Of a stretch of 50,413 nt of DNA, positions 2,182 through 17,470 are shown one piece after another; position 1 is the stretch's first letter, and each line of letters opens with the position of its first letter. Below the pieces are notes generated by a model. The model did no database searches, was not told where the DNA came from, and worked only from the letters and a program-made list of their open reading frames with translations. The translations under genes and the position numbers were made by a program. Source of the DNA: Syntrophobacteraceae bacterium (GTDB lineage Bacteria; Desulfobacterota; Syntrophobacteria; Syntrophobacterales; Syntrophobacteraceae); the NCBI GenBank assembly GCA_013314815.1, contig JABUEY010000011.1:1-50413 (forward strand). Reading direction: 5' to 3'.

Positions 2182-2396
2182 GGATTCTTCTCCCACTCGA
2201 TATGAAATGATGTAATCGGGACGGCTTCCGTTCCCGGCTCCACTTCCGGCTGGATACGCCTGTCCCGGCCCCCCTGCAGGACCCACGAAAAAATAAGGTC
2301 CCATGATGCACTATTCAAGCAAATTATGATATGCGGCGAATTTTTGTTTGGGTGTCAACCACCGTGTTTCGCCGTCAAGAATGCCCGTTTCCAGGT

Positions 2397-3620
2397 TCAG
2401 GCCTTGAGCCTGGTTTCGACCCTGACTTCGGAATGCAGAGTGTGATGGACGGGGCAGCGGTCTGCAATTTCCAGCAGCCGCTCCCTCTGCTCTGCATCGA
2501 GCGGTCCTCTCAGTTCTATTTCCCGCTCGACCACATCGATCCTGCCGCTCTTCGACTCACATTCGCTGCAATCCCGGGCATGGACTTTTCGGTGTTTCAA
2601 CCGCACCACGATGGATTCGAGAGGCCATTCTTTTCTGTCCGCGTACATGCGCAGCGTCATGGAGGTGCATGCACCGAGAGCCGAAACGAGGTAATCGTAG
2701 GGGCTTGGCCCAGTGCCCGATCCGCCCACGGCAACTGGTTCATCGGCGATGAGTCTGTGCGCGCCGGCCAGGATCTCGGTTCGGTATCCCGTTTGCCCCG
2801 TATGTACGACAATCCGGTTGTCCGTGAGGTCTCTTTCCTCCCTGTCCCTGTCTTCCGGGCTGCCGATGTATTTTCCGGCCCAGGCGGCCAGAACCGCCCC
2901 AGCGTAAAGGGAATCGGACCTGCTGGAAAGCAGGTGGTCTGCCTGATCGAGAGAAATGAAACTTTTCGGGTGCCTTGCCGCCTGAAAGATCTTCCCCGCG
3001 GATTCGATCCCCACAATCGTATCCCGCGGTGAATGAAAGATCAGCAGCGCCTTCCCGAGTTGGCGGATACTCTGCTCCATGTTGCTCCGATCGAGTTCAT
3101 CCACGAATTCCTTCCTGATTCTAAAGCTTCTGCCCGCCAGAGTCACCCTGGCTTCGCCCTTGGATCGGATCTCCGGCCCTTCCCTGCTTAAAAATCTGGC
3201 GACGCTGGAAAGGTCCGCAGGCGCGCCGATCGTGGCAACGGCCAGAGATGAAGGAATCGACGCTGCCGCCTGAAGAACGGCCGCACCTCCCAGGGAGTGG
3301 CCGATGAGCAGCTTCGGGGCGTCAAAGCCGGATTTCAGAAACTCGGCCGCGGCAACCAGGTCGGATACGTTCGAGGAAAAGCCGGTATTCGAGAAGTCCC
3401 CCTCGCTTTCCCCCAATCCCGTAAAGTCGAACCTGAGGACAGCAATCTTGTCTCTTGTCAACGCACGACTGATATTGACCACCGCATTGAAGTTCTTGGT
3501 ACACGTGAAGCAATGGGCGAATATGGCGTAGGCATGAGGTTTTTCATCCATGGGCAAGTCCAGCCGGGCATCGAGTCGCTGCCCCGCTGCATTCCTGAAG
3601 GTCAGTTTCTGGAACTGCAT
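2397..3620 (-). CDS. Bifunctional alpha/beta-hydrolase / OsmC-family protein
   Basis: About 407 residues. Residues 1-250 form an alpha/beta-hydrolase with nucleophile elbow GHSLGG, an oxyanion-type HCFTCTKN near the N-terminus, the acid region SPRDTIVG and the histidine in QADHLL. Residues 265-407 form an OsmC/Ohr-type domain with both family cysteines (LGACTSMTLR and ADRCPVHHTL), which in relatives reduce organic hydroperoxides. This fusion architecture is known in many bacteria, but the physiological substrate is not. The start is the ATG at 3620 behind GAGAGGTG; a GTG two codons upstream is the alternative. It is divergent from cytochrome c3. Confidence 0.9.
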   Translation of the reverse strand: MQFQKLTFRNAAGQRLDARLDLPMDEKPHAYAIFAHCFTCTKNFNAVVNISRALTRDKIAVLRFDFTGLGESEGDFSNTGFSSNVSDLVAAAEFLKSGFDAPKLLIGHSLGGAAVLQAAASIPSSLAVATIGAPADLSSVARFLSREGPEIRSKGEARVTLAGRSFRIRKEFVDELDRSNMEQSIRQLGKALLIFHSPRDTIVGIESAGKIFQAARHPKSFISLDQADHLLSSRSDSLYAGAVLAAWAGKYIGSPEDRDREERDLTDNRIVVHTGQTGYRTEILAGAHRLIADEPVAVGGSGTGPSPYDYLVSALGACTSMTLRMYADRKEWPLESIVVRLKHRKVHARDCSECESKSGRIDVVEREIELRGPLDAEQRERLLEIADRCPVHHTLHSEVRVETRLKA

Positions 3621-3916
3621 CTTCACCTCTCATGGTTCGAGGAATCTCTGCAGGAAGTACCGTGGTGCATCCTTTCTTTCGCTCGATCGACTTATATGCG
3701 GTTCCGGATCTCCGAACATTCTTTCTACACTCCAAACTAATCATTGAAGAATTGCTGGCAATCCACGAAAAAACGCGGGCTCATCAGAATAATGGTTGTC
3801 TTCCAAAGTCCTCTATCCTTCGAGATCTGCTGAACACCCGAGATCTTCCGCCCGCCTCTGCAGTCGATCCTCGACGGCCGAGGGCGGAACTGCCGTGTCC
3901 TCGGGCAAATACTCTC

Positions 3917-3946
3917 TTGACATATAATGAAAATCTTCACTAAAAT
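3917..3946 (+). promoter_or_regulatory. Sigma-70-type promoter of the cytochrome c3 gene
   Basis: TTGACA at 3917-3922 matches the -35 consensus exactly and TAAAAT at 3941-3946 matches five of six -10 positions, with an 18-bp spacer. The predicted start lies near 3953, about 57 bp before the ATG at 4010. This promoter lies in the roughly 390-bp divergent gap (3621-4009), where I see no other gene. Confidence 0.6.
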
Positions 3947-4009
3947 GGCCGATGTCTGGGAATTGTGAGCTGGGATAATTCAAGCGAGAGTGAAAGGAGG
4001 GAAGAAATC

Positions 4010-4456
4010 ATGAGACGTGGCAAGTACTTTACAAGTGCAGTCGCCGTGGTCGCACTCGTCTTCGCTGCTGCACTGGTGGCAATCGCCGTGGACAAGGGTC
4101 CGGATGTCATGAGCATCAAGGCAGGGCTCTGGCCGACACCGACGAAAGCCCCCGTGGAGTTCACGCACAAAAAGCATTACGAAGACCACAAGATTGCATG
4201 TGCCGACTGTCACCATGTCTACAAGGACGGCAAGAATGTCTGGAAGGAAGGTGACCCCGTCGAAAAATGCGAGAAGTGCCATACGGAACCCACCATCCAG
4301 GGTGAAAAGAAGCTCCCCCCCGACCAGCAAAAGCTGAATCTTAAGATTGCTTTTCACGACAATTGCCAGGGTTGCCATCAGAAACTGAAAAAGGAAAACC
4401 CTGAAACAAAGGCTCCCGTTACCTGCGCTCAGTGTCATCCCGCGCAGAAGCCGTAA
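4010..4456 (+). CDS. Tetraheme cytochrome c3 (class III), periplasmic
   Basis: 148 residues including an N-terminal signal peptide (basic MRRGK then a hydrophobic stretch to about residue 26). Four CxxCH heme sites are visible: C64-ADCH, C87-EKCH, C119-QGCH and C139-AQCH. Histidines such as H53, H56 and H69 are candidates for the bis-His axial ligands typical of cytochrome c3. In sulfate reducers this protein shuttles electrons from periplasmic hydrogenases and formate dehydrogenases to membrane complexes. The ATG at 4010 follows an AAGGAGGG site; an in-frame upstream ATG at 3965 would spoil the signal peptide. A promoter precedes it and a terminator follows, so it is transcribed alone. Confidence 0.95.
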   Translation: MRRGKYFTSAVAVVALVFAAALVAIAVDKGPDVMSIKAGLWPTPTKAPVEFTHKKHYEDHKIACADCHHVYKDGKNVWKEGDPVEKCEKCHTEPTIQGEKKLPPDQQKLNLKIAFHDNCQGCHQKLKKENPETKAPVTCAQCHPAQKP

Positions 4457-16101: not shown

Positions 16102-16515
16102 ATGAAGGTGCTGGTGCCCACAGACGGATCCGAAAGTTCCATGAAGGCCGTGCGAATGGCCCTGGACATGGCCAAACATGAGGGAGCAAAGATAACCCTG
16201 ATGTCCGTGGCATTTCATGCTACGAGGGACTTCGATGAAATGCCGCCCAACATCCAGGACAAACTGGACGTGGCGGCCAGGAATGCATTGAACAAGGCCA
16301 AGGCGGTTTTCGAAGCTGAAGGGATCCCGGTCGAATCCGTTTTAGAAGCGGGCTACGTGCCTGCAAATAACATCGTGGAGAAGGCCCGGGAAGGAAAATA
16401 CGACAAGGTCGTCATGGGGAGCACGGGGACCTCGGCATTGAAAGAGGTGCTCATCGGAAGCACTGCAGCCAAGGTATCCGCTCATGCACCCTGCACCGTG
16501 ATTATCGCCAGGTGA
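16102..16515 (+). CDS. Universal stress protein (UspA family, ATP-binding type)
   Basis: 137 residues, one Usp domain. The nucleotide signature G-x2-G-x9-G-S is intact (GSTG, nine residues, then GST), and the N-terminal VPTDGSESS loop carries the adenine-site aspartate. This places it with ATP-binding (MJ0577-like) members. It is cytoplasmic. A strong AAAGGAG lies before the ATG. It is monocistronic and convergent with the selenoprotein gene. Confidence 0.93.
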   Translation: MKVLVPTDGSESSMKAVRMALDMAKHEGAKITLMSVAFHATRDFDEMPPNIQDKLDVAARNALNKAKAVFEAEGIPVESVLEAGYVPANNIVEKAREGKYDKVVMGSTGTSALKEVLIGSTAAKVSAHAPCTVIIAR

Positions 16516-16712: not shown

Positions 16713-17030
16713 TCAACAATGGCAGGAAGTGGAGCCGCATCCTCCGCCGCCAACGGCGACCTCAGGCGTGAGCTTGAAACCGGAACCCATCCCGTAGTTC
16801 ACATAGTCCACGGTGATATCCTTCGTCTGCTTGTGGAGTTCCTTTTCAATGACCATTGTGAAACTGTTTACCTTGAATACATCGTCGGCCTCGGTAGGTT
16901 CATCCAGAACCATCGCCAGGGACGGGCCGCTTCACCCGCCCGCCTGGAGGAATACTCTTATCGGGCTGATCTCCTTGCCCTTGAAGTATTCCTTCAATAT
17001 CTCCTCGGCTTTTTCAGATACATGAATCAT
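16713..17030 (-). CDS. HesB/IscA-like selenoprotein (in-frame UGA read as selenocysteine)
   Basis: 105 residues if the UGA at 16934-16932 is read as selenocysteine 33. Upstream of UGA the frame encodes a HesB/IscA start (MIHVSEKAEEILKEYF); downstream it continues as SGPSLAMVLDEP, VDYVNYGMGSGFKL and a cysteine-rich tail GGGGCGSTSCHC. Selenocysteine replaces the first conserved iron-sulfur-scaffold cysteine in the LQAGG-U-SGPSL context. HesB-like selenoproteins with this layout are an established family in anaerobes. The ATG at 17030 has an AAGGAGAT site. Standard gene calling would give only a 66-residue piece from an internal ATG at 16913. The tail differs from the usual CGC of IscA. Likely role: iron-sulfur or redox chemistry; not proven. 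Confidence 0.88.
16910..16925 (-). promoter_or_regulatory. Candidate bacterial SECIS stem-loop
   Basis: Nine bases after the first base of the UGA the mRNA can form a 5-bp stem CCGUC/GAUGG (one G-U pair) around a six-base loop CCUGGC. Loop guanines lie about 15-16 bases beyond the UGA, close to the spacing known for bacterial SECIS elements bound by SelB. Drawn by hand, not computed. Confidence 0.55.
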
Positions 17031-17470
17031 GCAGATCTCCTTTTCATTTCCTCTTCTGGTAAGGCGAACCATTACTTATTACAGTTCAATTATTATTAAT
17101 CACTCGATGCAAAGAAGTCTCTAACCTCTCGAAGAAAAAAAGAAACCCATCTCCAGCATCGAGCTGACATCGCCTGCTTTCACCCTATTCTCATGAATCA
17201 ATGTTGTTCGGGCCAAACCCCCGCGTTTTCCTCCGGCAGGACTCATGGCCACACGGGATCCGGCATTGGATGGGCCAATCCGTTCAGGCGCGTATAATTA
17301 ACATAAAGGTCTAGGTTCGAAAACCCTTAATGGCACATGGAGGTGCTTTTTCGGTCGGTCGATGGGGTTGGGAGAGGACGGGGCCGGGTACATCCGTCGA
17401 AGGCACATGGAACGATCTGAACGAAGCACTGCCAAAACCGCAAGACCTCCTATGACAACGATGAAACAGG
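17031..17470. other. AT-rich intergenic region upstream of the selenoprotein
   Basis: About 440 bp. The part next to the selenoprotein is much richer in A and T than its surroundings (17075-17150) and likely contains its promoter, but no good hexamer pair is visible. A TATAAT at 17293-17298 on the plus strand lacks a -35 at usual spacing. No gene is seen. Confidence 0.45.

Follow-up and report, generated by a model that had tools for sequence, protein, structure and literature searches.

HesB-like selenoproteins of anaerobes have been known as a family since the 2000s, and both the family and its selenocysteine (Sec) are described in print. Zhang et al. (2006; PMC1794560) list them for Syntrophobacter, Syntrophus, Desulfovibrio and Geobacter, and a 2026 review gives them the motif UxGP, with annotated members in RefSeq (PMC13188914). 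The function of the HesB-like selenoprotein of Methanococcus maripaludis is not clear, and nitrogen fixation was unimpaired in a disruption mutant (PMC11097638).

The gene considered here lies in a window of 50,413 nucleotides (the whole stretch of DNA that was analysed) from a Syntrophobacteraceae bacterium. It is a new member of this family and a well-documented, ordinary case of it, as a preliminary description of the DNA had proposed. The proteins of the four genera listed above belong to the same named family and come from the same kind of anaerobe, and the gene is likened to them by family name and by the UxGP motif. In all, it very probably encodes a HesB-like (IscA-related) selenoprotein whose UGA at codon 33 is decoded through the standard Sec system and a SECIS element.

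The gene and its family

The features of the gene are given in Table 1. The frame, its good ribosome-binding site and the position of the in-frame UGA had all been read correctly in the preliminary description, and the frame opens with ATG. The UGA stands in the context GG-U-SGPSL, in which U33-S-G-P fits the UxGP motif. Plain ORF calling under translation table 11 recovers just the last 66 residues (ORF 16713..16913), the very fragment that had been foreseen from ordinary annotation, and the gene makes a clean example of truncation by such calling.

Table 1. Features of the HesB-like gene, in coordinates of the window.
Feature	Position	Strand	Remarks or basis
HesB/IscA-like selenoprotein gene	17030..16713	minus	105 codons + TGA stop (16715-16713); translation with TGA=U
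UGA codon 33, predicted to be decoded as selenocysteine	16934-16932	minus	UGA or Cys at the aligned position in homologues
Ribosome-binding site AAAAGGAG, 6 nt upstream of ATG	17037..17044	minus	Direct reading of the sequence
Cys-rich C-terminal tail GGGGCGSTSCHC (C98, C103, C105)	16716..16751	minus	Family alignment, tail census, profile alignment to PDB IscA chains
Predicted bacterial SECIS stem-loop, GGUUC / UGGAU loop / GAACC	16911..16897, loop 16906-16902	minus	Pairing conservation and covariation

The read-through product matches NF038090 (IscA_HesB_Se, NCBIfam) at 116.9 bits (cut-off 85; E 4.3e-34). The match runs over residues 1-100 and spans the UGA, so that the HesB/IscA-like character claimed for both sides of the codon is borne out, and on these scores chance may be taken as excluded. 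The likeness extends to a full-length match, Sec at the family position and a Cys-rich tail, with nothing notable to set the protein apart. Pfam PF01521 (Fe-S_biosyn) is also matched, with 33.5 bits against a cut-off of 26.3. A related model of HesB-like selenoproteins, TIGR01911 (HesB_rel_seleno), gives 44.9 bits, under its cut-off of 66.35, and the protein is not assigned to it; that model stops before the tail. Nor does the protein count as a classical IscA, SufA or ErpA: it misses the equivalog cut-offs, and its cluster Cys positions differ.

Codon 33 and the stem-loop across homologues

Among 395 genomes of the phylum surveyed with NF038090, 220 contain a match with E <= 0.001 and 168 a match above the cut-off. 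Homologues were extracted from fetched loci of related genomes, giving a set of 92 distinct genes. The position equivalent to codon 33 is UGA in 77 of these and Cys in 15, with no other codon found, although the ratio is not a phylum frequency, since the sample was drawn from the better-scoring matches. On a tree built with this column masked, at least nine changes between Sec and Cys are required, five of them forced by well-supported branches. The nearest named relatives come from two Desulfarculales MAGs; they are 73-77% identical, and their codon at this place is likewise UGA.

These counts bear on whether the gene might be a broken hesB pseudogene, or whether its UGA could be a TGC or TGT codon altered by faulty sequencing or assembly. 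The in-frame stop and the 66-residue fragment from standard ORF calling are what such a reading would start from, but 77 homologues, many of them belonging to independent genomes, share the UGA, and that agreement excludes a misread codon, the case named beforehand as one that would overturn the proposal. The protein sequence is moreover kept on both sides of the UGA, together with a covarying SECIS, and the reading as pseudogene or error is so improbable as to be nearly negligible.

Ten loci (L034, L035, L036, L043, L056, L061, L078, L079, L084 and L105) have a Sec form and a Cys form of the HesB-like gene next to each other; in the Cys form the SECIS stem is not intact.

The stem-loop that follows the UGA has the form GGUUC-UGGAU-GAACC, its stem beginning 20 nt and its loop 25 nt after the UGA, with two guanines in the loop. 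The preliminary description had noted it as a small stem-loop at the right distance and had proposed folding as a check. When the sequence of the window is folded singly, the result is no better than for shuffled sequences (z +0.11 to -0.87), so the claim was right yet unprovable from one sequence. It is comparison that secures it. Across the UGA genes the consensus is GGYUC-UGGAY-GARYC, at one fixed distance from the UGA; the stem, with all its five pairs, is complete in 76 of 77 UGA genes and in no Cys gene out of 15; and RNAalifold predicts exactly the same stem.

The pairing is maintained through the choice of codons. An Ala codon in the stem is GCT in 59 of 59 genes (17% elsewhere in these genes), Val is GTT in 18 of 18 (24% elsewhere), and the Leu codon of the stem-loop is CTG in all 77. 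The Glu codon of the stem is GAG in every one of the 59 genes with GCT and GAA in every one of the 18 with GTT (Fisher p 6e-18, a value that ignores relatedness), and the tree calls for two or more changes to explain this paired switch. When codons were redrawn synonymously in 2000 trials, perfect stems numbered 6.2 on average and 16 of 77 at most, as against the 76 observed. A separate count over 32 of these sequences found 99.4% of cells paired and 12 double changes, located in two pairs, as against 3.9 in shuffles; the pairing collapses once the partner is shifted by one base. Conservation with synonymous covariation across homologues is decisive for regarding the stem-loop as a SECIS element, and the gene illustrates how such an element may be preserved by synonymous codon choice.

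Selenocysteine machinery and the decoding of UGA

The check proposed earlier for selA, selB, selC and selD found all four in the genome: a tRNA-Sec with anticodon UCA (73.4 bits), selA (511.5 bits), selB (382.4 bits) and two selD genes. The selA gene is in two pieces: it runs off one contig, and the part for its C-terminal end lies at the border of a second, a division most simply explained by an assembly gap. In one selD the catalytic motif, AAGUAAKICPGDL, itself contains an in-frame UGA. The second (L024, genome contig C98:578-1504) lies inside an open frame of 743 codons and is therefore probably fused to another domain. In-frame TGA codons occur in 6 of the 14 FlpD/MvhD genes, which argues that the genome is rich in selenoproteins; one such gene (L121, C217:32179-32547) contains two of them.

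Sec would thus be inserted at UGA33 by the SelC, SelA, SelD and SelB of this genome, directed by the SECIS that begins 20 nt further on, inside the coding sequence. The terminal UGA of the gene has no element of that type and would end translation. That UGA33 is decoded as Sec and the terminal UGA as stop is strongly supported on comparative grounds, and I regard it as nearly certain. A global reassignment of UGA was considered and rejected, since both the neighbouring Usp gene (16102..16515) and the HesB-like gene itself end in UGA.

The genome also contains a tRNA and SelB pair of a second kind. On contig C208 (L019) the tRNA-Sec model gives 52.6 bits to a tRNA-Cys-like gene (1020-1108) that has an 8-bp acceptor stem, U73 and a variable arm of the long kind. 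After it come mvhD/FlpD (1197-1781), a further ORF and a second gene of SelB type (2334-4301). The pair corresponds to the selC*/selB* systems covered by a review (PMC7609411) and stands beside canonical selC and selB. With both components at hand, and with UCA-anticodon relatives elsewhere proposed as opal decoders (PMC7609411), UGA33 might be supposed to be read as Cys; but the anticodon of this tRNA is GCA, which pairs with UGC and UGU rather than UGA and so rules the tRNA out, and a canonical tRNA-Sec (UCA) is present. Insertion of Cys by this route is very improbable.

Proposed cluster ligands, tail and proposed function

Profile alignment with the IscA/SufA A-type carriers in the PDB (1r94, 1s98, 2d2a; also 1nwb) covers the whole length of the protein. 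U33 falls on the first cluster Cys, as the preliminary description had placed it, and C98 on the last, which in IscA is the second Cys of CGC; the IscA ligands C35, C99 and C101 thus correspond to Sec, Gly and C98. Compared with IscA/SufA, the protein has Sec for Cys, lacks the first Cys of CGC in GGGGCGSTSCHC, and has two extra Cys at its end. The tail had been read correctly as different from CGC, but other members share the difference: a CxC of the IscA kind stands at the first Cys of the tail in only 5 of 92 homologues, and a tail without CGC is typical of the whole NF038090 family. A census of the 92 genes found three tail Cys in most and at least three in nearly all, with 31 ending, as here, in C-x2-4-C-x-C.

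The function of the family is most likely that of an A-type carrier of Fe-S clusters or metal. U33 would take the place of the first cluster-ligand Cys and, with C98, C103 and C105, would bind an Fe-S cluster or a metal ion at a dimer interface. I consider this the most likely role, with about an even chance of being correct. Against a role with Fe-S count the missing Cys of CGC, a poor AlphaFold model from three sequences (pLDDT 58.9, with U33 and the tail under 50), and a comparison of gene neighbourhoods that found no conserved neighbour; genomic context is therefore no help on function.

The main rival keeps the same selenoprotein but makes U33 a redox selenol that would form a selenenylsulfide with a tail Cys. 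Many prokaryotic selenoproteins are thiol oxidoreductases (PMC13188914), and both the abundance of tail Cys and the loss of the CGC ligand would suit such a reaction. Against this, the protein belongs by fold family with the A-type Fe-S carriers, the alignment puts U33 on a cluster ligand, and neither UxxC nor CxxU is found at U33, so that redox chemistry is possible but somewhat unlikely. The family could serve to test whether an Fe-S cluster can be held by a selenolate.

Searched with NF038090, which does pick up homologues in controls such as E. coli, the genome gave the HesB-like selenoprotein as its only match. A genome search with PF01521 found no other A-type carrier, which by itself is weak evidence of absence, since it missed even the HesB-like gene. 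The apparent absence of another carrier is a lead rather than proof. That the Sec protein is the organism's sole A-type carrier, its cluster held by the selenolate and the C-x4-C-x-C tail, is a tentative and rather unlikely proposal.

In some relatives (L090, L096, L102, L053 and L036) the tail ends in UGA with a directly adjoining stop or second UGA, e.g., ...SCCS-UGA-stop, an arrangement that fits a double stop and a penultimate Sec alike.
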